Of a DNA stretch of 64,000 bases, positions 26,328 through 64,000 are shown piece after piece; the first letter of the stretch is position 1; each line of letters opens with the position of its first letter. The notes below the pieces were generated by a model. It worked only from the letters and a program-made list of their open reading frames with translations. It was not told where the DNA came from and did no database searches. Where the stretch lies: positions 12,385,001 through 12,449,000 of the forward strand of contig NC_091094.1 of NCBI RefSeq assembly GCF_024713975.1. Reading direction: 5' to 3'. Position numbers and translations under genes: made by a program. This DNA comes from Paralichthys olivaceus. Lineage: Eukaryota; Chordata; Actinopteri; Pleuronectiformes; Paralichthyidae.

Positions 26328-27017
26328 ATGTGGCTGCCTATGATTGGGATGACCGCCCTGCCCCACCTGGGGGGGCTGTACGGTGGCTATATCACACGCA
26401 AAGAGGTGAAGGACTGGTACCCAAGCCTGCAGAAACCATCATGGCGCCCGCCGAACGCGGCATTCCCTATAGTCTGGACTTGTCTGTACACGGGCATGGG
26501 GTAAAACTCACAATGACTAATACAGTCTTTCATTTTCTGTGCCACCCTCATTTTATAAAACAATCCATACATGTATTTTTCTTTTCTGTGGTGCAGGTAC
26601 AGCTCCTACCTGGTGTGGAAGGAACTGGGAGGTTTCACTGAGGATGCACTGCTTCCACTGGGACTATATGGGCTACAACTTGCTCTTAACTGGGCCTGGA
26701 CTCCCATTTTCTTTGGTGCACACAAGATAAAACTGGTGAGAATTATTTCTTTATCTGAGACAACACATGGGATCATTATTCACAACTCAATATTGTACAT
26801 TGTGGTCCCTTTTACACCGGCTCTCTTCCTCTGCCCATGTCAGGCCCTCATGGAGATCGTACTTCTCACTGGGACTGTCGGAGCCACCATGGTGTCTTGG
26901 TATCCCATCAGCCGCACCGCCACTCTGCTCATGGCGCCCTACCTTACCTGGCTGTGCCTCGCCACCTCTCTCAACTACTGCATATGGAGAGACAACCGTG
27001 AGGAAAAAAAGGAGTAG
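26328..27017 (+). CDS. tspo: Translocator protein (peripheral-type benzodiazepine receptor)
   Basis: Five-helix outer mitochondrial membrane protein that binds cholesterol and porphyrins. Coding exons 26328-26500, 26597-26735 and 26844-27017 join in phase to 161 codons; a non-coding first exon lies upstream (donor at 24851). Visible signatures: MWLPMIGMTALPHLGGLYGG (TM1), WYPSLQKPSWRPPN, TGMGYSSYLVW (TM2), LNWAWTPIFFG (TM3), VSWYPISRTATLLMAPYLTW (TM4-5). Near the C-terminus LNYCIWR fits the cholesterol-recognition CRAC pattern L-x-Y-x3-R. Length is close to the family norm (about 169 in mammals). The start is the first ATG after the exon 2 acceptor (TCAG at 26321-26324). A poly(A) signal AATAAA is at 27414-27419. 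Confidence 0.95.
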
Positions 27018-33393: not shown

Positions 33394-34604
33394 TCAGTGG
33401 GGCTGAATGACTGTCAGCACTTCACCACAGCGGCCGCTCACTTTCAGCTGAGCCAGGTGGTCGGCTCTCGTGGGCCCGATGTTCAGGATGGCGACCGGCA
33501 TTTTCCTGTCACTTGCTGCCAGTAAGAACCTGTATCCTGAATACACCTATAGGGAATATCACAGAGGGGCAAAATTCAATTCAAAAGTCCAGAATAACTC
33601 TTTTCAACATGTTATTATGAAAAAATGCACCAAAACCTGCCTGTAAAGAGGACCCCACCACCAGCACTGCGTCCGACTCTGCCAGTCTGTCGTGTACAAA
33701 CTGTACTGTCCCTTTGTTCACAGAGTCTCCAAAAAAAGTCACCTCAGGCTTCAGTATTCCTCCACACACGTCGCAGGAGGGAACCCTGAAATGAAGGACC
33801 TGCTCGTCCTCCAGGAAGACGTCGCCGTCCGGAGCCGAGGCCCCTGCCTGAGCTCCCCAGCCTGGGTTTAATGATATGAATTGTCTCTGGAGCTCCTCCC
33901 TCGCAGAGATGGCACCACAGCCGAGACACACAACCCTGCAGACAACCATGTATCATCACTATTCATTTATCTTCCTCGTGCAGAGTTTTGAATGCAGTAC
34001 TTCCACCTACAGTGTATTGGTGCTGTATTTATTTCACTATCGCTACTGTTGCTCTTTAAAAGGATTTGACCTTCACCCCTGAGGGCCCATGTTTAAGGTG
34101 TCTGGTGACGTTTTCTCACCTGTGGGTGCAGCCATGGAGCTCAGTCAGTCTTTTCTGTCCGGCCTTCGAGTGAAGAGCATCCACGTTTTGTGTGACCAGC
34201 CAGTGCAGCTTCCCCCTCTCCTCCCACTGCTGAAGAACCCTGTGAGCAGAGTTCGGCTGATGGGAAGAGAACTGCGGCCACCCGACAAAGTTCCTGGCCC
34301 AGTAGCGCTGTCGTGACTTTGCGCTGCGGACAAACTCTGCATGCTCCATGGGTCGCCTACTCGTGCGGGCGTACAGTCCAACACCCTCTGAGCGATAATC
34401 AGGGATGCCCGACTCTGTAGAGAGGCCTGCTCCGGTGATGACAAACAGGCGACCGGCTCGAGACACAAACTCCTGCAGGAGGTCCTGGGAGTGGGCGTCA
34501 GTGGTGCTGCAGGCTGGGACAAAGTTCACCAAACCTGCAGGGACTGAGGATGCTCTCCTTACAGGCCCTCTGTGTAACGTGAGGGTCCACCATGGCAGTC
34601 TCAT
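33394..34604 (-). CDS. sirt4: Sirtuin 4, mitochondrial NAD-dependent lipoamidase/ADP-ribosyltransferase
   Basis: Class II sirtuin of the mitochondrial matrix; known SIRT4 enzymes use NAD to remove lipoyl and other acyl groups and restrain pyruvate and glutamate dehydrogenases. Exons on the minus strand: 34120-34604, 33641-33935, 33394-33546; 310 codons plus stop (human 314). The N-terminus [20 protein letters not shown] is a basic mitochondrial presequence. NAD-binding [23 protein letters not shown] and the catalytic His of TELHG (about residue 157) are intact, as are the zinc cysteine pairs C165/C168 and C216/C219. [19 protein letters not shown] and [10 protein letters not shown] complete the fold. 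Intron 2 starts CAG|GCAGGT, apparently a GC-AG intron, because only that donor keeps SLQ|VYSG in frame. A leader exon probably ends at 35629. Confidence 0.95.
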
Positions 34605-34881: not shown

Positions 34882-35236
34882 TTAAAGGTGCAGTGTGTAG
34901 AATTTAGTGATATCTAGTATTGAAACACCCCACACCTCACCCTCTCCTTCCAAACATGATAAAGAACCTGTGGCAGCTTCAGTTGTCATAAAACTCAAAA
35001 GGTGTTTAGTTTGTCCAGTCTGGACTGATGTAAAAAACATGGTGGCCTCCGTAGAGAGGGTCCCCTCGATGTAAATATAAAGTATTTAAATATAAAGAGT
35101 CTTTTCTGGGGTAAAGAAAACTACAATTCATACAATTTAGATGAAACGAACTAGTGAAAACATCATGAGGATTATTCTACATTACATTTCTGCCAATAGA
35201 TCCCTTTCATCTAAATCTTACACACTGGACCTTTGA
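34882..35236. mobile_element. MITE-like element, copy 2
   Basis: Second copy of the family at 6311-6632: starts TTAAAGGTGCAGTGTGTAGA, ends with the inverted form TCTTACACACTGGACCTTTG. It lies between the sirt4 coding exons and its presumed first exon. Confidence 0.7.
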
Positions 35237-35628
35237 TAACTAACTTAATAATGAAAGGTCAGAGGTCTACAAATGATTTTAGTGCCAACATGCTTTCATA
35301 ATTTGACTTTATTTTACATTGTAGACCAAGAAACATGTTAAATATGTATTTTCCTGTTAAACTTAAATCAATGCTTCCCTGTAGGAAGCTATAATCACAA
35401 ATGACCTATAACGTCACAACACCTGCTTAACATGACCTTTGCAATTCACTTTCTCCACGAGCTTTAACGTGAGTAACGTTGGAACCTCTTTATATACAGT
35501 CTATGGTTGGAACACGAGAAAACAACAAGACACTGAAACAATCGCTATTTATTTAAGTTCCTGTCGAAGCTAGCTAACCAGGTGTCAGCGTGCTAACTTT
35601 GTTCCCAAACGTTGTTAAGCCGCTGTAC

Positions 35629-35760
35629 CTTCTCTGTCTCCTCCAGCAGACCCACGGTCACGTTACTGTAGTTTCTGGTTCAACAGCGAGTCTCCAGCGG
35701 AGAAATGTCTCTTCAGTAACATCTCAAACCCACTGGCTGATATAAGACAGGAACCTTTGT
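35629..35760 (-). other. sirt4: Probable non-coding first exon of sirt4
   Basis: On the minus strand a GAGAAG|GTACAG donor sits at 35629/35628, about 1 kb upstream of the sirt4 start codon, next to a GC-richer stretch. The 5' limit is not visible. Confidence 0.35.
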
Positions 35761-35764
35761 AGCA

Positions 35765-36580
35765 CAGAGACGGAGAGGAACCGGAAATACCCGATTTCAC
35801 GTAACACCAAACATATTCGCGCTGCAAACTGGGAGTTGTAGTAAAACGACTTCGGCCCAGGAGCTCAGTGTGGATCAACTTTATTTGCCAAATTTGACTC
35901 TGTGTATCACTAAGGGTCTAACTATGAGTCTGTCAACAACACGTGATGTACCTGAACATAAAGAGTAAAGATAAGTACAAAGACACACAATGAAAACAAA
36001 CAGACGGATACAAACTACAGCCTCAGTTTAAAGACAATAAAATGGACATTACCATCTTTATGAGGGTTCTGTTGTAGCAGAGAGAAGGAGAACCCTCAAC
36101 GACTGAGGGGACAAAATAACAACACATCTGACTCTTAAGTAGAAAGATTAAACAAAGGAAGTGATCTGATAAACTAAATAATGTATTTGTCATAAAACAT
36201 AATTAATGAAAGTGGGAGACTAAATCTTGGACATTTAGACCAAAAACACGGTTGGACGCCGTTTCGAGTCAGATGTGAATGTCGAACACTTGCATAACAC
36301 CACAAGAGCAGCATGGAGGTATTTTCTGTTAAACTGTATAAACTGTCCTGTATATAAGTTGGTCACTAGTTACTTCATTTGTATTTGGCTGCAATGCTGT
36401 GTTCATCTCTGACTTGATACGATGTATTAATTCATGACATCTTGTTGTGAATGACCACACATCCGGCAGTTGTTGTATGATCCTGATTAAAAGTTTGCAT
36501 CAGAGATGGATGAAAAGAATGCATGTGAAGGTTTTAACCATCAAGAAGAACATAAAGAGTTGTTTCCTTCTCTATGTCTT
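35765..36580. other. Spacer sirt4 5' end / transferrin-like 3' end
   Basis: Contains CAACTTTATTTGCCAAATTT at about 35877, resembling a retroposon tail, and otherwise nothing I can name. The right part is probably the 3' UTR of the transferrin-like gene. Confidence 0.45.
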
Positions 36581-39500
36581 TTAGAATATGCTGCACACGT
36601 CCTGATGGCAAAACTCCAGGATATCTGTTGCAAGGAGAAATGAGGAATACATTAGCAAAGGAGATGGTTATATATATTTGACATACATGAAAATCAGTGT
36701 ATTTGGTTGCAGTTGTACCAGAGTGCGTGCAGTTGAAGACAGATTCTGCATGAGAGTAAAACTCCTCTCCGAGGATGGAGCGGTAATCCATGTGACTCGT
36801 GTGGACGAAACACTGCGTTGAATCTTTGAACAGCAGGTCACTTTCTCCGTACGGATGAGACTCAAAGAGCTGGAAGTCTGCGTCGGGTTTGGCTGCCAAA
36901 GTTTCCTTCATGGTAAAAAAATGTGTTTAAAAGATTAAAGAATAAATATCCACCTGCACTGGCAAAGACTGTAATTTAAGTGCATGTCCCGAACATTCAT
37001 CAGAAGAAACAAATGTAGATCTTTGACTGATTAAGGTCAGACTTAAAGGTTCAGTCTGTAGAATTTAGTGACATCTGAAGTGAAGGTTGCATGTTGCAGC
37101 TGAACACCTCTCACCTCACCCTCCCCTTCCAAACATGAAAGAGAACCTTTGGAAACCTTCATCTTTCATAAAACCTCAAAAGGTTTTTAGTTTTTCCAGT
37201 TTGGACAACCAAAAAACATGGTATAAATACATAAAGTATTTCAACATAAAGGTCCCATTCAAGGGTAAAGAAAACAACAGTTCCTACAATTTAGATGAAA
37301 CACACTAGTGCAAACATCACTAGAATTATTTTACATTCAATTTCTTCCTATAGATCCCTTTTACCTAATCTTACACACTGAGCCTTTCAACAATTCTTTA
37401 AAATCTAAATGTTTGCTTTTATTTTAGCTTTAGATCTTAGATTTAAAACTTGTATGGTTGCTAAAAGTGTTTAAAGTGTCTTAAAGTAAAACTGTGAAAC
37501 CTGAAATAATCCTCTCCTAAATACAATGACAATGGCCTGCGGAGTTCTGAGTGAGTCTAGCCAGTGAACAACACTGTTCTGATTCACTGTTGAGAAATGT
37601 TGAGACACTATTCTGAGGTGATGTAAAGGGACAGCAGAGCCTGTGAAACCACAGAGTGCACAAGAAAAGCCACATTTGAAAACCTCCCACAAATAAAAAT
37701 CAAATCAGATAAGCTGACCTGCGACTTCATGAGGAAGTCGTACACTCGCCCCGTGAGCACCGGCCGTGTCATAACAGTGTTCGGTGGGATGACCCCGAGG
37801 TTACAGCTCTCCCACTCTGACAACGGGGCCCGACGGCCGTCATCACACAGCAGCTCGATGTCTGATGACGTCCAACCCTCCGCCCAACCACTGGAGATCA
37901 AACCTGAAGCACAACATGACAGAAACATATGCGGTGACATGATAACGATAAACGAGCATCGGTGTGTGTTCATGTCAGGAGTTTATCTTGAACATCTCAC
38001 TGAGGATGTTAGCCTGAAGGTTGTGCTGCTCTAAAAAGGCCACATCGCCGTAGCTCTTTCCACTAGGATCTCCAACCAGGCACCTATGAAGAACAGATCG
38101 GATAAAAGGGTCAGTTCAACCAAACTATTGTGATGGAAATCTGAAAATACAGAGGCTGGGTTATCAAATCTGTCTTTGTGTATTTTATTGAGAGCTTTTT
38201 GCAGAAAGGATCAACACAGGGAGTCACAGGGATCTCAGAGTGTTGATGGAGAACAGTCAAATGCAAACATCTTATAAAGGAGAACTCAGGCTGTTGTCTG
38301 AGCCAGTTCAGACTGGTTCTGTAGCCGCAGTTTGAGACAGGGATTAAGACACAGGAAACTACTCTGTATAAGTTTGTTTTGAAGATAGAGCAGACAGAAA
38401 ATAAGTGATTGGAAGGTCATAAAGTAACAGAAAGGTCAGACAGGCTTCAGGTCACAGACAGTTCAAGTCATAAAAGGCTCAGACAGGTACAACAAAATAG
38501 TTTCCACCACACTATATATAAATCTATATATAGTTTCTCACTTCAGCCACAGTGAGATATTTGATTCTAGGGAGGAATGTTTTTTAAATTGGCAATAATA
38601 AATAAATTACAATTGATCTAATCACTTGTAAATGAGAGAGGTTGTTTGGTTTCTTAGTGATTAACCCAGATGAGCCGTACCTCTGTTTAATTCTGATTAA
38701 CTCACTTTTTTCAGTGTAAAAGCTGCTACACTCAATGTTCACTTCCTGTGCAGCACTGATGACAGACACACAAAGTTAGCAACTTGCTGGTGAACATATA
38801 TGGTGAACAGTAAGTCACTTATGAGACAGATGTTCTTCTTCTTTGTTTGGTTTATTGGTAGGTTTGTCTCTGTGTATGTCAGAGACATGTTTACCTCTTC
38901 TCTGTTTCCTCTTCCATGTTTACCTCTTCTATGTATTCCTCTTCTATGTTTTCCTCTACCATGTATTCCTCTTCCATGTTAACCTCTTCTATGTTTTCCT
39001 CTTCTATGATTTCCTCTTCTATGTTAACCTCTTCTATGTTTTCCTCTACCATGTATTCCTCTTCTATGTTTTCCTCTTCTATGTTTTCCTCTTCCATGTT
39101 TACCTCTTCTATGTTTACCTCTTCTATGTTAACCTCTTCTATGTTTACCTCTTCTATGTATTCCTCTTCTATGTTTTCCTCTTCTATGTTTACCTCTTCT
39201 ATGTATTCCTCTTCCATGTTTACCTCTTCTATGTTTACCTCTTCTGTTTCCTCTTCCATGTTTTCCTCTTCTATGTTAACCTCTTCTATGTTTACCTCTT
39301 CTATGTATTCCTCTTCTATGTTTTCCTCTTCTATGTTTACCTCTTCAATGTATTCCTCTTCTATGTTTTCCTCTTCTATGTTTACCTCTTCAATGTATTC
39401 CTCTTCTATGTATTCCTCTTCTATGTTTTCCTCTTCTATGTTTTCCTCTTCTATGTTAACCTCTTCTATGTTTTCCTCTTCTATGTTTTCCTCTTCTATG

Positions 39501-42500
39501 TTTACCTCTTCAATGTATTCCTCTTCTATGTATTCCTCTTCTATGTTTTCCTCTTCTATGTTTTCCTCTTCTATGTTAACCTCTTCTATGTTTTCCCTCT
39601 TCTATGTTTTCCTCTACCATGTATTCCTCTTCTATGTTTTCGTCTTCTATGTTTTCCTCTTCTATGTTTTCCTCTTCCATGTTTACCTCTTCTATGTTTC
39701 CTCTTCCATGTTTTCCTCTTCTATGTTTACCTCTTCTATGTATTCCTCTTCTATGTTTTCCTCTTCTATGTTTACATCTTCTATGTATTCCTCTTCTATG
39801 TATTCCTCTTCTATGTATTCCTCTTTTATGTTTTCCTCTTCTATGTTTTCCTCTTCTATGTTAACCTCTTCTATATTTACCTCTTCTATGTATTCCTCTT
39901 CTATGTATTCCTCTTCTATGTTTTCCTCTTCCATGTTTTCCTCTTCTATGTTAACCTCTTCTATGTTTACCTCTTCTATGTATTCCTCTTCTATGTTTTC
40001 CTCTTCTATGTTTACCTCTTCTATGTATTCCTCTTCTATGTTTTCCTCTTCTATGTTTTCCTCTTCTATGTTTTCCTCTACCATGTTTTCCTCTTCTATG
40101 TTTACCTCTTCAATGTTTTCCTCTTCTATGTTAACCTCTTCTATGTTTACCTCTTCTATGTTTACCTCTTCTATGTATTCCTCTTCTATGTATTCCTCTT
40201 CTATGTTATCCTCTTCTATGTTTTCCTCTTCTATGTTTTCCTCTACCATGTTTTCCTCTTCTATGTATTCCTCTTCTATGTTTACCTCTTCTATGTTTTC
40301 CTCTTCTATGTTTACCTCTTCTATGTTTTCCTCTTCTATGTATTCCTCTTCTATGTTTTCCTCTTCTATGTTAACCTCTTCTATGTATTCCTCTTCTATG
40401 TTTACCTCTTCTATGTATTCCTCTTCTATGTTTTCCTCTTCTATGTTAACCTCTTCTATGTTTTCCGCTTCCATGTTTTCCTCTTCTATGTTTTCCTCTT
40501 CTATGTTTACCTCTTCTATGTTTTCCTCTTCTATGTATTCCTCTTCTATGTTTTCCTCTTCTATGTTTACCTCTTCTATGTTTTCCTCTTCTATGTTTAC
40601 CTCTTCTATGTATTCCTCTTCTATGTTTACCTCTTCTATGTATTCCTCTTCTATGTTTTCCTCTTCTATGTTAACCTCTTCTATGTTTTCCTCTTCCATG
40701 TTTACCTCTTCTATGTTTTCCTCTTCTATGTTTACCTCTTCTATGTTTTCCTCTTCTATGTTTTCCTCTTCTATGTATTCCTCTTCTATGTTAACCTCTT
40801 CTATGTTTTCCTCTTCCATGTTTACCTCTTCTATGTTTTCCTCTTCTATGTTTTCCTCTTCTATGTTTTCCTCTTCTATGTATTCCTCTTCTATGTTTTC
40901 CTCTTCTATGTTTTCCTCTTCTATGTTTACCTCTTCTATGTTTTCCTCTTCTATGTTTACCTCTTCTATGTATTCCTCTTCTATGTTTTCCTCTTCTATG
41001 TTTTCCTCTTCTATGTATTCCTCTTCTATGTTTTCCTCTTCTATGTTTACCTCTTCTATGTATTCCTCTTCTATGTTTACCTCTTCTATGTATTCCTCTT
41101 CTATGTTTTCCTCTTCTATGTTTACCTCTTCTATGTTTTCCTCTTCCATGTTTTCCTCTTCTATGTTTTCCTCTTCTATGTTTTCCTCTTCTATGTTTAC
41201 CTCTTCTATGTTTTCCTCTTCTATGTTTTCCTCTTCTATGTATTCCTCTTCTATGTTTTCCTCTTCTATGTTTTCCTCTTCTATGTTTACCTCTTCTATG
41301 TATTCCTCTTCTATGTTTACCTCTTCTATGTATTCCTCTTCTATGTTTTCCTCTTCTATGTTTTCCTCTTCTATGTTTTCCTCTTCCATGTTTTCCTCTT
41401 CTATGTTTACCTCTTCTATGTTTACCTCTTCTATGTATTCCTCTTCTATGTTTACCTCTTCTATGTATTCCTCTTCTATGTTTTCCTCTTCTATGTTAAC
41501 CTCTTCTATGTTTTCCGCTTCCATGTTTTCCTCTTCTATGTTTTCCTCTTCTATGTTTACCTCTTCTATGTTTTCCTCTTCTATGTATTCCTCTTCTATG
41601 TTTTCCTCTTCTATGTTTACCTCTTCTATGTTTTCCTCTTCTATGTTTACCTCTTCTATGTATTCCTCTTCTATGTTTACCTCTTCTATGTATTCCTCTT
41701 CTATGTTTTCCTCTTCTATGTTTTCCTCTTCTATGTTTACCTCTTCTATGTTTTCCTCTTCTATGTTTTCCTCTTCTATGTATTCCTCTTCTATGTTTTC
41801 CTCTTCTATGTTTTCCTCTTCTATGTTTTCCTCTTCTATGTTTACCTCTTCTATGTATTCCTCTTCTATGTTTTCCTCTTCTATGTTTACCTCTTCTATG
41901 TTTTCCTCTTCTATGTTTACCTCTTCTATGTTTTCCTCTTCTATGTTTTCCTCTTCTATGTTTACCTCTTCTATGTATTCCTCTTCTATGTTTTCCTCTT
42001 CTATGTTTTCCTCTTCTATGTATTCCTCTTCTGTTTTCCTCTTCTATGTTTACCTCTTCTATGTATTCCTCTTCTATGTTTACCTCTTCTATGTATTCCT
42101 CTTCTATGTTTTCCTCTTCTATGTTTACCTCTTCTATGTTTTCCTCTTCCATGTTTTCCTCTTCTATGTTTTCCTCTTCTATGTTTTCCTCTTCTATGTT
42201 TTCCTCTTCTATGTTTACCTCTTCTATGTTTTCCTCTTCTATGTTTTCCTCTTCTATGTATTCCTCTTCTATGTTTTCCTCTTCTATGTTTTCCTCTTCT
42301 ATGTTTACCTCTTCTATGTATTCCTCTTCTATGTTTACCTCTTCTATGTTTTCCTCTTCCATGTTTTCCTCTTCTATGTTTTCCTCTTCTATGTTTACCT
42401 CTTCTATGTATTCCTCTTCTATGTTTACCTCTTCTATGTATTCCTCTTCTATGTTTACCTCTTCTATGTATTCCTCTTCTATGTTTTCCTCTTCTATGTA

Positions 42501-45500
42501 TTCCTCTTCTATGTTTACCTCTTCTGTATTCCTCTTCTATGTTTTCCTCTTCTATGTTTACCTCTTCTATGTATTCCTCTTCTATGTTTTCCTCTTCTAT
42601 GTTTTCCTCTTCTATGTTTTCCTCTTCTATGTTTTCCTCTACCATGTATTCCTCTTCTATGTTAACCTCTTCTATGTTTTCCTCTTCTATGTTTTCCTCG
42701 CTGTTTGTTTGTCTCTCTCTGATTTCCGTGACATTTTGAAAGGGGGTGGGACGTGACACACGGAAGAACCCATTTCCTTTTGGAGAGGATTTGCATAAAT
42801 GGGCAGATCCAGGATTTCTTTTTCACTTTCTTTAACAGGTGAAGACATCAACCTTGGAGGAGATCTGAACTCCCTGAGCCAACCTTTCAGTTCCTTTAAG
42901 GGTTGTAAGAAAATAAATAGACACAAATCTAATGAACTGTGATCTTCCAATTTCCCAATAATGTGGTGATAGGTGATATTGTATCAGTGTTGTGTTAAAA
43001 CTTGCTTCCAAGTGGCCTAAAAATGTGTGAATGTAGTTTTAAATATAAATTTTCACTGCTGTGAGCAACATAAACCTAATTCTATTCACACCGACATCAC
43101 AAAAATCTTCAAACCAAAAATATCTTAATAAAAGTGGATTGTTTTGTCATACTTTGTGGAGAAACCTCTCTGAGGTAAGCCTCTGCTCCTACCTTAAAGC
43201 TCCCATGTTGCCATAGTAACGCTCATTGTGATTGTCAGCGCAGCGTCTGGTCGCAGCCTCCCCGCTGCCTCCCATACACACTTTACACAGATTCCCCTGG
43301 GAGCCAGGAAGACAGCCTTTCCAGAACACGTCGTTGTAAACTAAGTCAACACAAAGTGACAGACAGCAGTTTCATGTCAGGGGTGAAAACAGAGGATACC
43401 ATTTAATAAAAATACAAGCAGTTACATAAAAGCTGAATATTGGTGAATATGTTGAATGAAGCAGCACCTTGGTTCGGATCACAGGAGCTGCTGTTGTGCT
43501 CCAGACTCAGTGTGTGTCTGTACGGCAGCATCCAGCCTGCGGGGCTGTACATGTGGCTCTGACAGGAGCGACGCCCTCCAAGGTTCCCGATGAATAAGTT
43601 CTTGCTGGAGCGCTTCGCAACTGCTACACCCACCACCGAGGGCAGCACTGAGGACGTTTCCATTTAAAGACAATAATAAACGTTAACTTTTAAGATCACA
43701 GTGAGTTTTGTGTTGAGCTGTTTTTCCTTTTTCATCTTACCATCTGTCTCTAGGTGAGTTAATCCCTCAGCCAGCTCACACTTTCTTCCTAGAGGACAAG
43801 TGAACACGGCAGAAGCAGATCGATGTTGTTTTAAGTTAATGTAGATGAGAACGGCAACTAAACTCATGGATTGTCTGGTGATAACTTTTTTAACAACTCA
43901 ACATTTAGTTTGTGAAATGTCAGAAAACCATGTGAGTGCCTTGTCCTGATGTTGATTGTAGAGTTGGATGATTTGGCTAAAGGCAGAAATACAATGAAAA
44001 TACCTTTAGGATTCTCCATGAGAAGTGTGTAAAATATAAGCTTTACAACCATTAATTGATCCATGTGAAATTAGTTGTTGTTGTGAACTGAATGTCATCA
44101 TACAACTGAACAGATTCTGGTTCTAAGAAGTTTTGTTTTTTAACAATAAACTTGTTTTTTAAGATTATCTGAGTAATTTTTTAAATAAATAAAAACATTG
44201 CTGGTTTTGTATTAGAGTAAAGTAAATACCTTTAGGCTTTAGTTAGTTGGTTGGATGTAATGTGCAAGTAGGGAACTGACACGGACATTTTCACTATTTT
44301 CTGACATTGTATACTCGAAATTATAAACCAATCAAGTAACTTAAACATTTGAGAAGTAGCAGATATTAACATTTTGGATCAAATATCAAACTTTAGGACT
44401 AATGAAGACCAACAGTCAATAATGAACATAACTTTAAGCAATTCAATTATATGAAGTGTGCTGAATCACGTTAGAAAAATAAAATATGTGGAGTCCTACC
44501 ATAATATTCTGTTACTACAGGGATGAGACCACATTTCCCAGCGATGAACGAGTGTGTTGCATCCAGCGAGGCAGCGTCCACCTCGTCCCTCTGCAGTAAA
44601 GGAACTGTAGCTTTTATACAGAGTGTGAAAATATACTGATATCATGCAATTTATAAAACTCACCTTGATTTTCTCGATACAGTCCCGCATTGAAACGGCC
44701 CTGACACACACCAGAGGGTCTGATTTAATACTGAGAGCCCACTGTTCACACTTCTTCTGCTCTGCGTGGCTGATGCAGCACCATCGCACCACGCTGTCCT
44801 GCAGTGAGCTCCCTGCACACATGCAAGTTCAATGATGTCACAGAATCAGTGTCTTTAAAATGAAAAGTAACAACAACACATCAGTGAAGCACCTTCATGT
44901 CCGAGGCCTTTGAGCAGAGCCACATAATCCAGCCCCAGCACCTGACTGACGTCCATGTCGTCCGGAAGGACGGATAATTTATACGTCAGATCTTTGAAGA
45001 GGAGATCGTTCTCCCCGAAAGCGGAGGAGTTGAAGAGTTGGAAGCGCTTTCTCTCTCTTCCTCGTTGACCAAACAGCATCTGAAGAAGAACAAAGAGTCC
45101 TTACAAGTTTTTTTTGATTGGGATAAAACAATTTGGAAATGGAGCACACAGAACTGATGTGTGATATCTGTGAAAAACAACAAGGACTGAATAAGATCTT
45201 TTTTTTTACCTGCACTGTCACAAGAAATTTGCGAGCAACCTTGCGAAAGTTGAATCGGGTGACGATGCCTCCGCCCGGACCTCGTCCCAGGTTACAGCTT
45301 CTGTAGTGGCTGAGAGGAGCCTGAGTTCCGTCAGGACACAGTAACTTGAACTCATCACTCTCGCTCTCTGAGAGAAGAGACAGAATATGAAGGGAGGAGG
45401 GAGAAAGGGCAGTTTGTTTAAAAAAAAAAGTATAATGATGATCTGGTATTCATTTATTTTGCAAATTTAAATTTTCCTTAGTCAAGCTACTTTCTAGCCT

Positions 45501-48424
45501 TTTACCCTCAAGTTCCTCCTGATATCATGTTTTGCCATCAGTAAACACAGAGGTTAGACAGCTGATAGGAAATGAGATGACAGGGAGGCCCTGCTCTGGC
45601 TTGACTCAAACTTGGGACGTTGCACAGACATTGCCGTTGTCTTAAACCTCTCCTTCACTTTATTTGGATTGTAACAGGGTTAATAAGAAAGAGGGAGAGA
45701 GCACAGACCTCCACCAACGACAAACAAGCTCTAAAAACAGAACTACTGCGTCACAGGCTGTGTCTCCATCAACCAGTCAAGTTGTGGGAAATATGTGACC
45801 TCAAACATTGACGACCAAACTTTAATCAGTTCACCCTGAAGTCAAGTGAACTTTTGTTCCAAATTTTAGGAAATGTGCGTGTGAATCTGTGTGAAACTTA
45901 TAGACTCAACATTTTCTTGCACCAATATTGTCTGGACCTGCACCAAACTGTAACAACATGTAGATCTCAACACAATAGAAAATAAGGAACAGAGACAAAT
46001 ATTGCAACGTTAAGAGAAGTGATTTGAAATTTCTGCCTCTGACCGGATCTGTCCCAAAACTTTATGGCTTCCCTCCACAGAGTGTGATACAAATCACTTC
46101 AGTCAATTTTGCATATTACCGCAAAACAAATACACAAACAGGTGAGAACATAAGCTCCCTGGTGGAGGTGATGATTTGTAAGACATAAAACTCAATATTA
46201 CCTTCAATGCTTTCGAGGGCTAAATTGTCCACAAATGCAACATCCCCTGCACCTCTCCTCAGACATCTGTGACAGAGCAGGAGAGGTAAGAGGAGCGACT
46301 CATTCATGTTTTTACAGTTATTTCACATGTTGATTTAGACCTGAGGGCCCCCTGGCTGTTGTAGAAGGGTTCACTATGGGATGTTTCACAGTGGTAATTC
46401 TTCTGGCGAATGTAAGATTTCTGGCCTTGGCACAGCGCACACAGACGTGGAGCCACGGCAGCAGCTCCAGGAACACAGCTGGCACTGAAGAACTTACTGA
46501 CGTCTGAACGAGAGGAGAAAAACAAGTGAGGGGACTGAAAACCCAGAGGACCAAAAATGTGAAAGAGAAATAAAAAAATACATCATCACTTTCCTACATT
46601 CACTTCTTCATTACCTTGACTGAGCGGCTGCTCCTTTGACCAGCTCAGGTAGTTTCTGGACAGCAGGAAGCCGAGAGGAAGACTCCAGCCGGCTGTCCAT
46701 CGTATGCCACTGTGACAACTCCTGAGTCCCTGCAGGGATCGGATGTCCAAGCTGCTGTTTCTCACCACAGCCACAGACAGAAGGCAGCCTCCTGCAGAGC
46801 AGACAAACACAGGCACGTATACTGGCTCAGATCACAGGGATGCTGAAGTTTTTAAAAGATGTGAAGCAAACCCACCGTCACTGTATATTTCCTTGGCGAT
46901 GGCGACGAGGCCGAACTGCTTCACAGCAGAATAAACCTCCCCTGCGTCTAATGTCACGATATCAGCACGGTTTGCCTGAAACAAAGAATTTAAACAATCT
47001 AAGTTGAACTTCACAAATCCACCGGATGTTGATATGACGCTTCACACACCTTCAGAGTCCATTCATTCCAAAAACCCTCCGAAGAGTCGAAGGAATCAAA
47101 CCTTTCCAGATTTCGCCAGGTCGCAGCATCAGTTTAAAACATTTTGCATTTAAATTTACTGCGATGTTGACACTGAAAATCTTTTAAACCTGGAATGTTT
47201 GCTGGGACGCTCCTCTGAGGGAACTTCTCAGCAGTACAGTAAGAAATTTAACAAAAGACACATTTCCTGAGCAAATGGAAGTTTCACCTACTGTGCAAAG
47301 ATTTTCACTGAACACTAAACAAATCTTTGCTGCACCTCACAAAGCTAAAGCAAATTAAAAGCATTGAAGTTAACAAATATACTGTACTACTACGCTATTG
47401 ACTTTCTTCTTTTTCAAATTGTAATTTAACATGAAGCTGTATGTAGCACAGTTTTCATATTATACTGTCATGTGTCTGTTTATATTAGGGAAAATATAGC
47501 CTCAGCTAATATAGCAAATATTAAAAATACAAAGATACCTTGGACTCTATGCAGGATGCCTTGATGCAAACAGGAAACCTCAACACTTACCCAGGTCTCC
47601 TCATTTTAACATTCCTTTGTATATTATTCTAAACCTCTGGAGGCCTGAACAAGATTTCAAGAAAATTGTTACTGGTGCAATGTATTCATTTGTTATATTG
47701 CCTCCTTTATTGTTGCCATAAGCTTTAGTTTTCTCCTGCGTCCTCAGCTGTCCTACTGGAAACATCTGAATCACATCTAAATCATTTCTTCCTTTCAACC
47801 AGGTGTAAAATACAGATTGTACAGGTGACCTGATGTCTCACCCTGATCCTTTCGATGCAGTCAGATGTGCTGGACGCTCGTATGCATGAGAGTCTTGCAA
47901 AAGCTGCCAAAATAGCTGAAGGCAGCACCGCCACCAGAGCTTTGGCCAGTTCTGCACACTTCCTCTGTTCAGGGTCTGACACAGTGCACCACCGCATCTT
48001 CTTTGCTGCCATTAAAGGAACAGTTCAAACGATCCACATACATCAGTTGCAGAAGTAAAAACACTGCACACGGTACATCATTTAGTCGATAATATTTGAG
48101 TTATTTTAAGGTATTTAATGAATTTCTTTGTGCATCCACTCAATGTAAAGATCTGAATACAACGTAAACTGTGAAATTATTTTATTTCTAAGATACACTC
48201 AGTTTGAATAAATGTCATGAAAAGCAAAAAGCTCCACAAAGAGGAAGACATCATTCCCAGCGACAATCAAAAGCTCAAATTACTAAAAGAAGAAGAACAA
48301 TAATAAAAACAGTTGTTCTTATAGACAAAACAACTTGTCAATATAAACATATAAATAAGAAAAACGTACCCATGATGCAGCAGACAAACATGTAAAAGAA
48401 CAAAATTGCATAAAGTCCACGCAT
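36581..48424 (-). CDS. Secreted transferrin-family protein lacking iron ligands in both lobes
   Basis: Two-lobed transferrin homologue. Seventeen exons on the minus strand, every junction in phase: 48370-48424, 47842-48005, 46876-46975, 46615-46791, 46341-46503, 46202-46266, 45210-45367, 44893-45079, 44664-44812, 44500-44590, 43741-43788, 43468-43647, 43193-43340, 38001-38083, 37719-37903, 36719-36905, 36581-36624; 727 codons. A hydrophobic signal peptide ([16 protein letters not shown]) begins the protein. N-lobe landmarks: [53 protein letters not shown]-lobe landmarks: [53 protein letters not shown]. The end ([12 protein letters not shown]) has no GPI-anchor tail, so it is not melanotransferrin. 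Seventeen exons is the serotransferrin layout. The iron-site Asp persists in each lobe, but both Tyr, the His and the anion-binding Arg are replaced, so iron binding is unlikely. Confidence 0.9.
37043..37389. mobile_element. MITE-like element, copy 3
   Basis: Third copy of the family at 6311-6632 and 34882-35236: starts TTAAAGGTTCAGTCTGTAGA and ends TCTTACACACTGAGCCTTT. It sits in intron 15 of the transferrin-like gene. Confidence 0.7.
38886..42699. repeat. 3.8-kb minisatellite of a 15-bp unit in transferrin-like intron 13
   Basis: About 254 head-to-tail copies of TTTTCCTCTTCTATG (sense strand of the host gene: CATAGAAGAGGAAAA). Variation is confined to a few positions: after ATG the bases are TTTT, TTTA, TATT or TTAA, and before ATG they are TCT, TCC, TCA or ACC. 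Rare units are shorter or longer by one or more bases (near 39241, 39591, 39693, 42033, 42525), which shifts the reading phase. Because the unit is a multiple of three, five of the six frames lack stops, producing spurious open frames up to 1,298 codons. The array lies between exon 13 (ends 43193) and exon 14 (starts 38083) and accounts for most of that 5.1-kb intron. Confidence 0.97.
44270..44345. mobile_element. Fragment of dispersed repeat
   Basis: ACATTTTCACTATTTTCTGA followed by CATTGTATACTCGAAATTAT, matching the 3' half of the element seen at 21255-21440. It lies in intron 10 of the transferrin-like gene. Confidence 0.35.
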
Positions 48425-48913
48425 TGCTGCAGCTCAAAGATTTGGACAAATCTGTCTAACGCAGAGCACAACACACAGTTGCCCTTTCTGTTCGTTTTCC
48501 TGCCAAGATCCTCTAAAAGTGAAAGAGACGCTGGTGCTAATGGGGAAATAGAAAACCTATTGCGTAAGGCCACTCCTCTGAGAAAGTCACTTTTTTCACA
48601 CATATGGAAAATATTTAACACCAGCTGTTGCAAGGACAACCCCTATCCAACGTTTTCATAGAAGTGTCGAGGTGAAGACGCCTTTTAAGTACTTGGATTT
48701 ATATGCAGAGACAGTTTTAAGACCATTTACATGATATTTAATAATAGTAAAAAACATCACCTGGACAACACTCACACAGCTGAGTGCTACAAAGTAAAGT
48801 TATAACAAAATATGCGTCAGAATGTTTCTGATTCAAATCTTTGTCATAGTCTCACATCATTTTAATAAATGTGATCGTAGCAGACGAACAGTCCGAATGT
48901 GTAGCAGGTGTAA

Positions 48914-51900
48914 TCACTCTGGGAGTGTGTGAGGACCGGTTCTGTTTCCAGTCACGCTGTAAACAGTTTCTATCTCTCTTGTTTTCCGACTGAGAGCATA
49001 AACTCCCGACGTGTGGAGGGCAGTCTGTAAACGCTCGATCCTCTCTGCGTGCAGCAGCATCGTTGGTTTCTGATTCGTCAGTTCGGAGGAGAGTCTGTCG
49101 ATGCGCTCGTCCAGCTGTCAACAACAACAACATCCATTGTGACACAGGCAAGATGACATCCAGTGTCAGTGATTTGATACAGTTTCCATTGACCGCTGAC
49201 CGACATACAGTATACTGCTCAAACGAGGCCTTAGACAAATACATTCCAAGCTATCAGTGTATCTTTCCAAATTCAATGACCTCAGACAGTTTAAAGTATG
49301 TCCACCTGTGGGAGAGAATACCTTCATAAATGATTTTATGTGAAACATGTAACATGCAGATGTGAAACAGCGGGGCAAGTTAAATTTAAGGTTAATGTGT
49401 TACACATGTTCTCCCTGTGTTTGGGTTCTCAGGCTTTCTCCCACATCCAAAAACATGCAGCTTAGCTTAACTGGAGACTCTAAACTGCCTGTGGGTGAAA
49501 ACCTGAGTGTGAGTGGTTATTTGTCTGTATGTGTCAGCCGTGTGATACGCTGGTGACTTGTCCAGGGTGTACCCCACCTCTCATCCAATGTCGCGAGGAT
49601 CAGTGGTACAGATAATGGAAGGATGGACTGACTAACTATTATGTGGCAGATAAAGTATTGACTTTAGGCTATTGAAAATTTCTCTGACCATTGTTAATGA
49701 CCAAGATCATCATCAAACACATTGTGGATACAGCATATCTTTCTCATTGGCAATACATGGTTTTCTTTGTAATTTATGGTTCGTTATTGGTCAAATTAAT
49801 GTGGGGACATTCAGCAAAAACATTTTTTTAACTTAAGTATTGTTTGGTTTTAAATTATTCTACAAATTAATAATAGACTTGACCTAAGCTTGTTGTTGAT
49901 GTTTGAAACTAGGAGAAAATGTAGAGACTTGGAGCAAAAAACAAAAACTAAATCAAGGAGTAAAATAACTAATTGTTAATCACAAACCAACACTGACAAT
50001 TGTGTCCTCTTGCAGCCACTGGATTTCGTGTTTTTACCTGTTGAACATGTAACATGATCTGATCTTCTTACCTCCTTCAACTCCTGACAAACAGAATCTT
50101 TTTCCATTGGCTCATCCTCTCCACTGGTCTGCAGCCAACTCTGCAATACCTCTCTCAGTTTCTGCCATGACCTGAAGACACACACAGACGGACACACACA
50201 CAGTTACTATAGTGACGACATAAACAGCAACACAAGAAGAAAGGAAAAAACATCTCTGTTCTTTACCTGAGCTGTTTCCTGTCCTGTTGGAAACTCTTCA
50301 TGTTGAGCTGAATGCTGAGCAGTTCTCTCGTCAGAAATGACGCTGGATCACTTCTTGCATCTTCTACATCAAGACCCTCAGTTTGTTCATGAGACGCTTT
50401 CATATCTTACAAAAGCAAAACAAAATCAAAACATAATATTAACTACAAAATCTTGTTTTTTCATAATCACTGAAAAAAAGCAGCTGACATACCTGGATAC
50501 CTGGAGTCATGTTTGAAGGGAGAAACAAACTGATGAAAAGAAACACGGGGGATGTCTCCAGTCCCTCGGCTGCTGGCTTTTCCCAACTTAAAAAAAAAAT
50601 CATAACGAAAAGTGAGTCTCACTTAAGCACTGAATTTGAATTGATATCTGTCCAAATCAACCAGGTGATTATTACCATAGTTTGAGAGCCAGTGTTCATG
50701 AAAGCAGAAGGAGGCAGAAGAAGGTCTTTGCTTCCTTGAGAGGAGTCCACAACCGACGCATGAGTTTCAGTGGATGTGATGGTGCTCTGATGTGTGGAGC
50801 TAACCAGGATGTTCGCAGAATGGAGGTCGGTCAACAATGTAGTCTGGTTGTTCTGCCAACTGAAGAGTTCTGCAGCTGATTCAGGGTCGGTGATGCCCGG
50901 CTGGTTTTGGGTGCTGAACAAACAAGAAAAATGAAAAACATGTTTATCAAGGTTTTAACATGATGTTTCAATTTAGGATTTGTGATATGAAATACATGTG
51001 CAATATCAAAAAATGATGTAGTGGTTGTTGATGATTTAGAAAAAATGTGTCACTTAATTCACGAGAGATTTACCCTGTATGTAGCAAGACTGAGCCTGGA
51101 GATTCAAACTGTTCTCTGCAGTGACGGGGCTGTCGTCGAGTTATCTTTGTGGGAAGCCTGAAAAGAAAAAAAGATAAAGTGTGAGACTGAGTCCATGTGT
51201 TGAGAGATTCAGATTAACGGTGTAAGACTCACAGCTTGCTGAGCCCAACGTCTTCAGTTTCCTGCTCCACTGAGTCAGACGATGAAACTTTCTCTGGTCC
51301 ACGTGTCGTCAAACAGAAGGTCACGCTCTTCTTCCGAGGTTGCTCTTTGACTGTTTTTTCTCTTTGAGGTTTACAAAGCGCCCGCTGCTTCCACCGCATA
51401 GCACAACGTTTGACCACTCTCTGGAGATGCCGGGATGTCTGCAGGACACAGGCAGACTTAAAGAATACTACTACTAGTACTCATGGTGAAGTGATGTAAA
51501 ATTTGCACACTCAGATACCGACTTGTTCCTGGCTGTGCTGCGTGAGGCTCGTCGTGAGATCGTTCATGTGAGCAGCATATGTGAGGATGCACGTGACGCC
51601 CTCCCTCAGCAGCTCGTCTCTGTAGACCCGTGCAGCTATGGCCACCTGCTCCTGCTTCTGGCGCTGCTCAGTGACCCACAGCCTCCATCCATACAGCACC
51701 TGCAGCACATGCACCGAGACACATCAAACGCTTTAGAGTGAGAAGCAACTTGAATTCATCATGAGGCTCTGAGGAAAAAAATGTGTTACCTTGGACTGAA
51801 GAGTGAGAGACCAGTGCCAGAGCGCTTTCTCCGTCTGCTTAGCTTCTCTTCGTCTGTGATGCAGCTGTTAACAGGAAATAAAGTGATTTAAATGTAATTA

Positions 51901-54900: not shown

Positions 54901-57900
54901 TCAAAATTGTTGTCAATTAATTTTCTGTTGATTGACTGATCATTTAACTGACAAACTGTTTCAGCTCTAAAATCAAGAATAAAAAAAAGAGAATCAGTAT
55001 TTAGATTAACCCCTAAGAGTCTTGATCTATTATTTGCTTTTTTGGGAAAGTTTTAGTCATTTTACTTTATATACAGAATTAAATTGTTTGTTGTTTGTTA
55101 AAAACACCTGCATGTGTCTCTGTTCAGCAAGTTTCTCCCTCCAGTTGTGAAAACAGCTGCTCAGCAGGGACAAGCTGTCAAAATGCAAGAAAGATAGATG
55201 GATAAAGATTCAAACCAAATGAATCACACAGGAATGACTTAAAGTGAAGTGTTAAATGTACTGATGTAACTTTTTATATCAATAAATATATTATTTCACT
55301 TCAGGACTAGTGTAGTTGAAGCTAAAGAATGAAAGATGTGAATAAAAGCACCTGTAGATGGTCGCTGCCTGTTCTGTTAGAGGTTGAAAACTCTTGTCTT
55401 CCGCCTCCTCCAGTCGATCCTGCCACAGCCTCCAAAACTTCCTCATCATCTACAAGAGACACAAAACTCCAACCATTCAATCAATGCAGACTTTAATTGA
55501 AGTTCCTCACTGATCATGTATTTCTTGGTTGAGTGCTGAATTGTTGTCAATCACAGTTTGATCATAATGCTGGAGAGCAATGTTGTTGTTCAAGCGACGT
55601 GTTTTGTTCCAGGTGACGTTGAGAAAAAGTCCCTGCAGTCCAGCGCACTGCAACAAGAACACACAGTCTTCAATACATGAACTGATCACAAGCTGTATCA
55701 TTATATGTTGTAGCTTAATGTTTGGTTCTTACCAACAGATGATGCTGGTGGTGTTGAACCGCCATCTGGTTCACTTCAGCTTCGTCTCTGCTGAGCGTCA
55801 CATCTACTGATGAGCTCAAGAGTCAAACACCTGAATTGATAATTACAGGAACTCACAATTCTACAGTGCACGACTTTTGATGCTGCAGTAGAAAATGAAA
55901 GTTTGGGTATTGATTAGGATACAAGTTCTCCATCGCTCCAGTGCTCTGCGTTGGGTGCTCCGAATGGCTAACTGCCCTGCAGCTTGTAATCGCTCCTCCT
56001 CACTCCACCTGCGATGCAACGCCTTCCTCCAATTACTCCAACACATCTTCACCAGGCGGAGGTAACAGGCACGATGAGCTGCGGCTGCAAAAATCAAAAC
56101 TGATAACTGAAAAATACATCTTAAAAGGTAAACACAAAAAGTATGTATAACAGGCGGGTAATTAAATTAACCTTGTGACGATCTTTTGGTTTGGCAGAAG
56201 GACACATAACTCGTCCACTGACGCAGTGTGTTTCTTTTCAGTTTGAGGATGAAGTGAAGTGAAGCTCTGGATTCTTTCTCCGTCTGACAACGAAAAGCTA
56301 CGTGCATTTCTGTCCACTGAAGCCAAGCCTTTGCCAAAAGAGAGCAAGAGGACAGTGTGTATGCTGAGGCAAATGATAATGAGAAGACAAGAGTTACGAA
56401 TGAGTCAGATGATGTGTTTACCCTTCTCTTTAAAATCAGCGCCTGCTGTTTGACAGTTTGCTCCTCCAAGGTGTAAAGGTCTTGTTGCTGCTGCAGCCTG
56501 GTCCGCCATAAGCTCCATGCAGAACTGCACAGTAAAACATCATGAGTGTAGAACTAAACTACCAAAGATAAGGGCGTGTCGGTCACTTCTGTTTGTATCC
56601 ATCTCACAGCTCCTTCAGGGAGGCATCTCTACAGCACTGGGCTTTGTGACTACAGTTCACTTACTGCAGAGCTGCGAGTCTGTTATGCTCAACAGCTAAC
56701 TCAATCATCGTCTTCTTCATACGTCTCATCTCTACGAAAACCTCCCACCTCTCCCAGACCTGACGGATCCGTTGCCTGTCAGCTGGTTCATGAAACAAAG
56801 TGATTAGTGTCACAGCAGCTTCTGAATGAATGACATGAGGTTATATTAGGTTGTATATACTCTCGTTTGAAAATTCATACCATATGATTGAGCGTTTTTT
56901 AGTTTACTCTTCTTTTCCCTCTGCAGTGAGACATATGTTCGCCAGCGATGAAACGCCCAGTTACACAGATAATACCTGAAACACAAAGTAATTCATTTCA
57001 TGTACACACATTCATACACATCAATTAAACGCTAGCAGGACAGTTGTCTGTGGCAATTTCTGGTTCTGTGTGTTTCCTAAGTTGTAGATCCACATTCTGA
57101 GCCACAGCCACAAATGGAACAACAATCTACCAAACTATAGTATATACATATAAAGCAAAGCCTTATTTACTAACGGTGGAAACTCCTCCTGTAAGATAAA
57201 TGTAATGGAGTAAAAACTACAGATGAAGTATAACACCTAAATAAGTGTAAAGTACCTGAGATTTGTACTTAAGTACAATCTTAAAATGTTTGAGCTGACC
57301 TGTAGTGACACTGTGCCCTTGTTGTTAGACTCCACTCTCTCCTGGACGTCCACCACTCGTCTCTCCATCCTTCTATGGCTCGTCTCAGCACCACACTGTC
57401 ATAGTGAGACCTACACCACACAATGATCCCTTCAGTGAGTGACCTCCGGCTCAGTTGGGACCCATGACACACAATGAGACTGAAGCACGGCTGATTTCCA
57501 AAATAAACGTGACACGTCACCTGGCTTTATGAGGTGGAACTCGACCAAAGGTTTTCTCCATCCACATGTGCAGGAACTTTCTGGCCAGGTGCCTGCAGAG
57601 GGTGGAAAGGTTGGAATAAAAAAATGATACATGATCACCACCATTATGGACTGCACTGTAACTCTCTGAACTAAGCCACATTCATTCTGTCTGTGCAATA
57701 TCAACGGTTCATGTGCAATTCTAACACTACACATATTTTCCTGCTTAACACGGTTAATATTAGTTTAATTACGTTCATATTTTTCAATTAATCGTTGCAT
57801 GTTACTGACTGATGCATATTTTGACTCTTGCTGCTGCTGTTATACTGCAAATTTCCCCTTTATGGGACTAATAGAGGAATATAATATCTTATCAAGATCA

Positions 57901-62700: not shown

Positions 62701-63947
62701 GCCAGCCGCTTCAGTCAGTGGTTCTCTAGTAACCTGAGCCCCTCAGGCAGCCAGTCAAGTAGTCTGAGGTCCACTCCTCACGAGGAGCTGGAAAAACTAG
62801 CAGGTAAATGATTTGGTTTCCTTGGCTTGCCCAACGTTTGGCTGAAAATTTTTAATGCAACGATTACTTAAAAGTAGACCAGAGTAAAATAAGCGGACTG
62901 TTCTTAAATTCAGGATTAATACATGAACAAAATAAATTCAACAGTAACAACAATAAATTAACAAATTGTCTAGAGAACAGTGTTTTAGGATTTCTCAGAT
63001 TAAGTTATCCCGATGTTCCATGACCAGATTGACCGAAGTGCCTTGATTGTTTTGACATTGTCTTGTAAAGCAGAAATAAAGTACCCCATCGAATGAAACC
63101 GGTTTTGACTGAAAACTTGTTGTGATCACCTTAAATGCTATGTGACTGCTGATCTATTTAGTACTTCCCTTTGTTGTGTTCAAAATCCTAAAACAGACTC
63201 TTTAATTTTATTTTTTTTGTTGAAACCTTGATTTGTTTTACTTGAAGGGCTCGAACCACGCTGCACGTCCCAGAGCCAGGGCCCTGTCTCATACTTCACA
63301 CCTATTCAATCATCAGAGTGCAGAGAGAAGGTGGACATCCTGGAGCTGCTGCACAAAGCCAAAATAGACCTGAAGCCTCTTCTGTCCACCCTGTCGGTCA
63401 ACAAAGCTCGGCTACGGGAAAGCAGTGAGTTTCAGTTCACGAAAAGTTTGTTGAGTCATAGCAAAACACTTAAATAGGAATATACTGTGCACAAGATAAT
63501 CTGCTTATGTATGCTTATGAAATACAGATACAAATTTGAGCATGGTATATTTTAATTGGAACATGTTATAACACAAACACGAAATAAGGAGGGACAGCTT
63601 TTGCCATGCATCTGTTTTGTTTGTTTTGTCCACTTTCGAACAGCTACATAATGCTCGATATTGGTCTGTCCCTAGCTAACTGTGGAGCGGTGCTCTCGCT
63701 GGAGGAGGTGGAGGGGGGGATGAAGGGAATGAAGCTGGGCTCAGAACCACAGGTGCGAAAGGTGCCGCCTCCGCAGAGAGGAAACGGCACGCCCTTCATG
63801 GCTGAGCATTTAGAGGAGGCTTTAACAGGAGGCCCCAGTGCCCGTCCACGCTCGCGTGACACAGACATGTCTGCCTTTAATAAACTAGTGAGCAGTATGA
63901 AGGCAAGTGGAACGTTGCCTACTCACCCCAAAACCAACTCAAACAAT
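59755..63947 (+). CDS. eif4enif1: eIF4E transporter 4E-T (eIF4E nuclear import factor 1), 5' part
   Basis: Nucleocytoplasmic shuttling protein that binds eIF4E, represses translation and organises P-bodies. Exons: 59755-59853, 59956-60029, 60569-60696, 61024-61298, 61572-61770, 61904-62064, 62665-62803, 63248-63424, 63676-63947; 508 codons in phase, and the gene runs off the right edge (human about 985 residues). The eIF4E-binding motif YTKEELLEIKEL (Y-x4-L-phi) is near residue 31. Then SDGVWDPEKWHASLYP, KEDDLDVILSPQRRSFGGG, RRIGSGRIIAAR, RRRNDSYAEEEPEWFS, SETIELIGFDDKILE and PEQSTGDFDFNEFFNLEK follow the human protein closely. FMAEHLEEAL and FNKLVSSMKASGTLP close the visible part. Exon 6 ends GAAG|GCATGT, apparently a GC-AG intron. 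A 5' non-coding exon ends at 59139. Confidence 0.95.
60927..60984. repeat. 29-bp direct duplication upstream of eif4enif1 exon 5
   Basis: Two perfect head-to-tail copies of a 29-bp unit (starts GATCTGTGATACTTGATGTG, ends CCTGTTTTA) in intron 4, ending about 40 bp before the exon 5 acceptor. Confidence 0.95.
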
Positions 63948-64000
63948 GTAAGTATTTCTATAAACATGTTTTTATTTCCACCTCAACTGTTTTTTTAGTT

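Follow-up and report, generated by a model that had tools for sequence, protein, structure and literature searches.

Gene structure and surroundings

The window, that is, the whole 64,000-nt stretch of Paralichthys olivaceus DNA that was analyzed, contains a transferrin gene on the minus strand at 48424..36581, with the ATG at 48424 and a TAA ending at 36581. Its 17 exons form a single continuous frame free of frameshifts and broken splice sites, and all 16 introns are GT-AG. The coding sequence of 2184 nt encodes 727 amino acids, 35 of them cysteines, with no internal stop. The earlier note had described a complete, in-phase 17-exon gene with the landmarks of the transferrin fold, and its coordinates proved exact.

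A profile search with the window protein matched Pfam Transferrin (PF00405) across both lobes in two stretches (E 8.5e-139). The sole other Pfam match was to a periplasmic phosphonate-binding profile (E 1e-8, above its cut-off), in accord with the kinship of the two folds. Exon 1 (48370..48424) holds the start codon and an N terminus that is signal-like, as judged by eye from its hydrophobic stretch. Four N-x-S/T sites are present, at residues 118, 311, 504 and 709. The C terminus, encoded together with the stop codon by exon 17 (36581..36624), resembles that of soluble transferrins, and inspection by eye found no hydrophobic anchor tail.

Intron 13 (38084..43192, 5109 bp) contains a 15-bp minisatellite at 38887-42699, with about 255 copies of the consensus ATGTTTTCCTCTTCT at 90% match. 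This repeat is the source of a strong skew in GC and AT and of spurious open frames of great length. Adjoining the transferrin gene downstream are pieces of a Sir2 family gene (33581-34604, minus strand; Pfam SIR2), which we take to be SIRT4-like. A single plus-strand frame at 31487-32305 matches DUF4504 (E 8.3e-82) and is presumably C1orf74-like, and a TspO/MBR family match lies at 26559-27017 on the plus strand (E 1.4e-26). The 455-codon minus-strand frame at 15551-16918 has no Pfam match; to our eye it resembles the C-terminal part of an FRS2/FRS3 docking protein. On the other side of the gene, repeats at 55861-56553 without a Pfam match are presumably SFI1-like, and an EIF4E-T (4E-T-like) match at 63588-63998 (E 7.7e-6) falls below the family cut-off. 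We assume that these last two genes may be neighbors in mammals too. An Rfam scan of the 64,000-nt window gave no match at gathering score.

Iron and anion sites

The metal and anion positions were placed in a MAFFT alignment of the window protein with human lactoferrin, chicken ovotransferrin, human melanotransferrin, frog saxiphilin and two fish paralogs, PDB-derived sequences included. The N-lobe, which starts in exon 2 (47842..48005), keeps its Asp ligand as D83 in exon 3 (46876..46975; codon 46948-46946). In exon 4 (46615..46791) the first Tyr ligand is replaced by L110, the anion-site Thr by S134 and the anion-site Arg by W138. Exon 5 (46341..46503) has S215 for the second Tyr and, beyond exon 6 (46202..46266), also N-lobe, exon 7 (45210..45367) has G274 for the His ligand (PGGGIV). 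The lobe ends in exon 8 (44893..45079).

The C-lobe starts in exon 9 (44664..44812). D416 is kept in exon 10 (44500..44590). After exon 11 (43741..43788), exon 12 (43468..43647) carries V457 for the first Tyr, S483 for the anion Thr and S487 for the anion Arg, and exon 13 (43193..43340) has N557 for the second Tyr (YYGNMGAL). Exon 14 (38001..38083) is followed by exon 15 (37719..37903), where N631 stands for the His ligand (PPNTVM), and by exon 16 (36719..36905), the last before the terminal exon.

Six of the eight metal ligands are thus lost, namely all four Tyr and both His, leaving one of four per lobe. Both anion-site Arg are gone, and the anion Thr is Ser in both lobes. Neither lobe has the Asp, two Tyr and His of an iron-binding transferrin, and neither has the Thr and Arg of the carbonate anchor. 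The ten motifs on which the earlier note had based its reading by eye are all present and in register with the PDB-derived transferrins, and its count of lost ligands and Arg residues was reproduced.

Other exons that might restore the ligands had been raised in the earlier note as a way in which its reading could fail. The region 35001..50000 was searched by tblastn with nine queries: the window protein, the three fish paralogs (the otolith one as two models) and four PDB-derived proteins. There were 176 matches, 18 of them outside the called exons and only six of these on the strand of the gene. The best outside match lies on the plus strand (E 0.009) and corresponds to a probably intronic stretch of the serotransferrin model described below. 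Own-strand matches outside exons reach E 0.47 at best, and hidden ligand-restoring exons in 35001..50000 were rejected; the search gave no such exon on the strand of the gene.

Site loss and the rest of the fold

Loss at the sites was compared with loss elsewhere in a lobe alignment. Eight iron-competent lobes agree throughout at 66 of its columns, of which five are site columns and 61 are not. The window N-lobe keeps 51/61 of these other invariants and the C-lobe 53/61, together 104/122, against 2/8 iron ligands (Fisher p 0.0005). A cysteine column was counted as conserved when four or more of the seven proteins, the window protein among them, have Cys there; 28 of 28 such columns are kept. 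The site loss is hence targeted and does not reflect general decay, as 104/122 other invariants and every cysteine column are retained. The survival of frame, cysteines and signal peptide claimed earlier is borne out, the last as a signal-like N terminus seen by eye.

Relatives with altered sites were counted in the same way. Frog saxiphilin keeps 53/61 invariants in the N-lobe and 51/61 in the C-lobe, with 1/4 and 0/4 ligands; its sequence was taken without the thyroglobulin part and the last residues, and two of its ten lost C-lobe invariants are gaps. The otolith matrix protein of this genome keeps 53/61 invariants and 1/4 ligands. For the damaged melanotransferrin lobes the values are 57/61 and 3/4 (human C-lobe) and 48/61 and 2/4 (fish N-lobe).

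As a gauge of decay, neutral substitutions were simulated in a simple scheme that ignores indels, with 2000 runs at each step. At 0.01 substitutions per site, 44% of runs left the coding sequence without a stop; the share fell to 18% at 0.02, to 1.9% at 0.05 and to 0.05% at 0.1, and at 0.2 every run had gained a stop. The simulation argues against long decay and is compatible with a recent loss of constraint.

Other transferrins of the genome

Transferrin matches in the genome (588 Mb, 25 contigs) comprise at least 28 at exon level and fall in four places, on contigs C2 (the window), C16, C3 and C12. The three loci outside the window were modeled with a spliced aligner, and the ends and inner stretches of these models are unsure. 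The C16 locus reads as a serotransferrin with all eight ligands intact and Lys in place of the anion Arg of the N-lobe, a change also reported for cod Tf1 in the available part of PMC3125230. The C3 locus reads as a melanotransferrin with an intact C-lobe and an N-lobe in which the Asp and His ligands are missing, the reverse of the human protein; the same source, in that part, gives this pattern for cod melanotransferrin (PMC3125230). The C12 locus reads as a one-lobed otolith matrix protein, whose nearest rows in the lobe tree are melanotransferrin lobes.

When the genome was searched with the window protein, 14 of the 17 matches fell at the window locus and the remaining three, all weak, at C3 and C16; no further close copy of the gene was found by this search. 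The earlier note had suggested an undescribed fish paralog. The gene is indeed distinct from the three other loci, but "undescribed" was not upheld, as a salmon "saxiphilin-like" gene is named in the accessible portion of PMC8202022. The Atlantic cod set, according to the sections at hand of PMC3125230, comprises Tf1, Tf2, MTf and Omp. Relative to that set the window gene is extra, unless cod has lost its copy or the gene was overlooked there.

Relationships of the window protein

Identity to the window protein is 38.3% for saxiphilin, 37.7% for human melanotransferrin, 37.0% for lactoferrin, 35.4% for ovotransferrin, 34.4% for fish serotransferrin and 33.4% for fish melanotransferrin. Trees were calculated from seven whole proteins or 15 lobes with a support mark of 95. 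The second otolith model (fOMPc) was left out, and the human melanotransferrin row, which lacks the tail, was assembled from three alignment segments that overlap.

The lobe tree puts each window lobe with its serum-type and saxiphilin counterparts, at 98/99 for the N-lobe and 93/99, under the mark, for the C-lobe. Membership in melanotransferrin was rejected on these groupings, and membership in the otolith matrix protein was rejected because the window protein is two-lobed. In the whole-protein tree, the window protein falls outside the group of saxiphilin, fish serotransferrin, lactoferrin and ovotransferrin with support under the mark (81/91), as it does with site columns masked and a simpler model (90/94, again under the mark). 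Both trees have it on the same side of the split as melanotransferrin. Its branch is long (1.85; 1.19 under the simpler model), and the placement of saxiphilin among the serum-type proteins is itself weakly supported (42/28).

Alternative pairings were compared by AU test, in the standard and in the masked, simpler-model analysis. Pairing with saxiphilin was not rejected (p 0.362 and, masked, 0.104), pairing with lactoferrin was rejected (p 0.006, masked) and pairing with fish serotransferrin was borderline (p 0.066 and, masked, 0.026). A tandem duplicate of serotransferrin was rejected on the last two values and on the lack of a second close copy.

Loop lengths are mixed. Two states are melanotransferrin-like, an N-lobe lacking one residue and a C-lobe with four extra residues relative to the serum-type proteins and saxiphilin. 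Two others, a one-residue C-lobe gap and a shorter N-lobe loop, are serum-type states common to saxiphilin and the window protein. This mixture fits a branch between the melanotransferrin and serum-type groups, a placement that is unsure given the long branch.

Rankings of PDB entries depended on the query. With the full-length protein, ovotransferrin, human lactoferrin and melanotransferrin stand above saxiphilin, and the inhibitor of carbonic anhydrase (3mc2) is the lowest of the full-length relatives. A frame across exons 7-8 with the intron read through ranked saxiphilin first; the spliced exon 7-8 query ranked melanotransferrin first and 3mc2 above serotransferrin. The saxiphilin-first rank of the read-through frame is a weaker argument than first apparent, since the other queries disagree.

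Saxiphilin and the saxitoxin site

In the frog saxiphilin chain (PDB 6o0d), residues 107 and 253 flank an insertion at the position of intron 3, a stretch that we take to be the seat of its two N-lobe thyroglobulin type-1 domains. Intron 3 of the window gene (46792..46875, 84 bp) is too short for two such domains, and Pfam found none in the window protein. That frog saxiphilin carries thyroglobulin domains is stated in the accessible text of PMC12022044.

Frog numbering was obtained as chain index minus 19, which reproduces the residue letters. Presumably F561, T563, P727, F784, Q787 and K789 are among the frog contacts to saxitoxin. In the window protein, Leu stands at F561, Ser at T563 and Thr at F784; P727 is kept and Y558 falls in a gap. 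Of the key contacts, E540 is replaced by Thr and D785 by Ser or a gap, depending on the alignment; the alignment position of the D794 equivalent is unreliable. The same portion of PMC12022044 gives E540 and Tyr558 as bullfrog contacts, and Glu541, Asp786 and Asp795 in a second frog protein whose numbers are one higher; it also reports that E540A lowers saxitoxin affinity about 2000-fold. Frog-type saxitoxin binding is unlikely, because two key contacts are replaced and E540A alone costs that much.

Of nine site positions altered in both proteins, three carry the residue found in saxiphilin (N-lobe His to Gly and Thr to Ser, C-lobe Tyr to Asn). Direct membership in saxiphilin was rejected on the missing thyroglobulin domains and the two absent key contacts. 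The saxiphilin-like character proposed in the earlier note holds in part: saxiphilin is barely the closest protein by identity, and a third of the substitutions agree, whereas the domains, the two contacts and the best trees speak against it.

Interpretation

Read from the sequence, the locus quite probably holds one intact gene, present as a single copy, whose secreted product has the two-lobed transferrin fold, is iron-blind in both lobes and is kept for another ligand or partner. As most iron-holding residues are replaced in both lobes and the fold is otherwise kept, the protein probably binds something other than iron. It would be exported and folded into two hinged lobes whose clefts stand open or have been repurposed, and the gene would be retained because its product binds a non-iron ligand or partner. 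Most likely this would be a small organic ligand in the cleft, as in saxiphilin, or a surface protein partner. The latter is the mode of the mammalian carbonic anhydrase inhibitor. Maintenance of the gene, as seen in one genome, is probable.

The long branch agrees with fast evolution or relaxed constraint no less than with a new role, and a gene on its way to becoming a pseudogene would also agree with the large minisatellite in intron 13 and, if the relaxation were recent, with the simulated survival of open frames. Against this, all 17 exons are free of stops, frameshifts and broken splice sites, and the cysteine columns and most fold invariants are intact, which makes such a gene rather improbable. 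Residual or weak metal binding through other cleft residues is possible with both Asp kept. A carrier whose altered ligands still hold a metal or an anion, perhaps more weakly or with a different metal, might use these Asp together with the Ser hydroxyls at both anion-Thr positions; however, both anchoring Arg, four Tyr and two His are lost, and the Leu, Val, Gly and Trp side chains do not usually coordinate metals. We regard such a carrier as very unlikely.

Descent is harder to judge. The gene might be the fish ortholog of frog saxiphilin, from an iron-dead ancestor to which thyroglobulin domains and saxitoxin binding were added later in frogs. Top identity, the three common substitutions, a pairing that survives the AU test and the unsettled place of saxiphilin itself are in its favor, while the best trees put saxiphilin with serotransferrin, lactoferrin and ovotransferrin and leave the window protein outside, two of the four loop states are melanotransferrin-like and three other proteins outrank saxiphilin in the full-length PDB search. 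On balance we hold this orthology to be doubtful. A toxin sponge for saxitoxin or tetrodotoxin would suit a marine fish, which encounters toxins of this type, but with E540 and D785 replaced and Y558, F561, T563 and F784 changed, P727 being kept, this role is highly improbable, even though one protein of transferrin fold whose iron sites are altered is documented to bind toxin in the available parts of PMC12022044 and PMC13376186.

The preferred reading, a retained iron-blind protein with another ligand or partner, would place its descent from the two-lobed ancestor of the serum-type transferrins, with a split probably before serotransferrin, lactoferrin, ovotransferrin and saxiphilin diverged. 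It is a tentative further step, and one we would not favor, that an old vertebrate two-lobed lineage, iron-dead in both lobes and older than the serotransferrin, lactoferrin and saxiphilin split, was retained by fish to bind a ligand or act as an inhibitor, in a role that has nothing to do with iron. If true, iron-dead transferrins that bind a ligand would predate frog saxiphilin and be more widespread than it.

Comparison with known systems

To our knowledge, few transferrins have abandoned iron for a different task: saxiphilin, the carbonic anhydrase inhibitor and the otolith matrix protein. In searches of an open-access library we recognized no description of an iron-dead two-lobed fish transferrin; the available sections of a stickleback transferrin paper (PMC9774405) name no such gene. 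Relatives may already be annotated in other fish under the name used in salmon. There, a "saxiphilin-like" gene is among those downregulated in gill disease, according to the accessible part of PMC8202022; it may be a counterpart of the window gene. A lungfish liver transcript is named saxiphilin in the portion at hand of PMC4378924, and these two were the sole fish mentions that the searches gave.

Serotransferrin, lactoferrin and ovotransferrin resemble the window protein in having two lobes, the cysteine columns, the serum-type lobe identity and two loop lengths. The three compared proteins keep 8/8 iron ligands, in contrast to 2/8 here. Melanotransferrin is also two-lobed, has two loop-length states in common with the window protein and, in human and fish, one damaged lobe each. 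It differs in that each has one competent lobe, in that its lobes stand apart from the window lobes and in that the window C terminus is of the ordinary soluble kind. The otolith matrix protein has likewise lost most iron ligands, keeping 1/4 in this genome's copy, but has one lobe and lies at another locus.

The mammalian inhibitor of carbonic anhydrase (PDB 3mc2) is a transferrin relative acting as a protein inhibitor; its comparison with the window protein is by rank in the PDB lists only. Frog saxiphilin (6o0d) has the same two-lobed fold with iron ligands lost in both lobes. The window protein departs from it in lacking the thyroglobulin domains and two key contacts and in standing outside the saxiphilin and serum-type group in the best trees. 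The window gene, intact and separate from the set given for Atlantic cod, offers a natural case for what the transferrin fold can bind after giving up iron, and a comparison point for the origin of saxiphilin.
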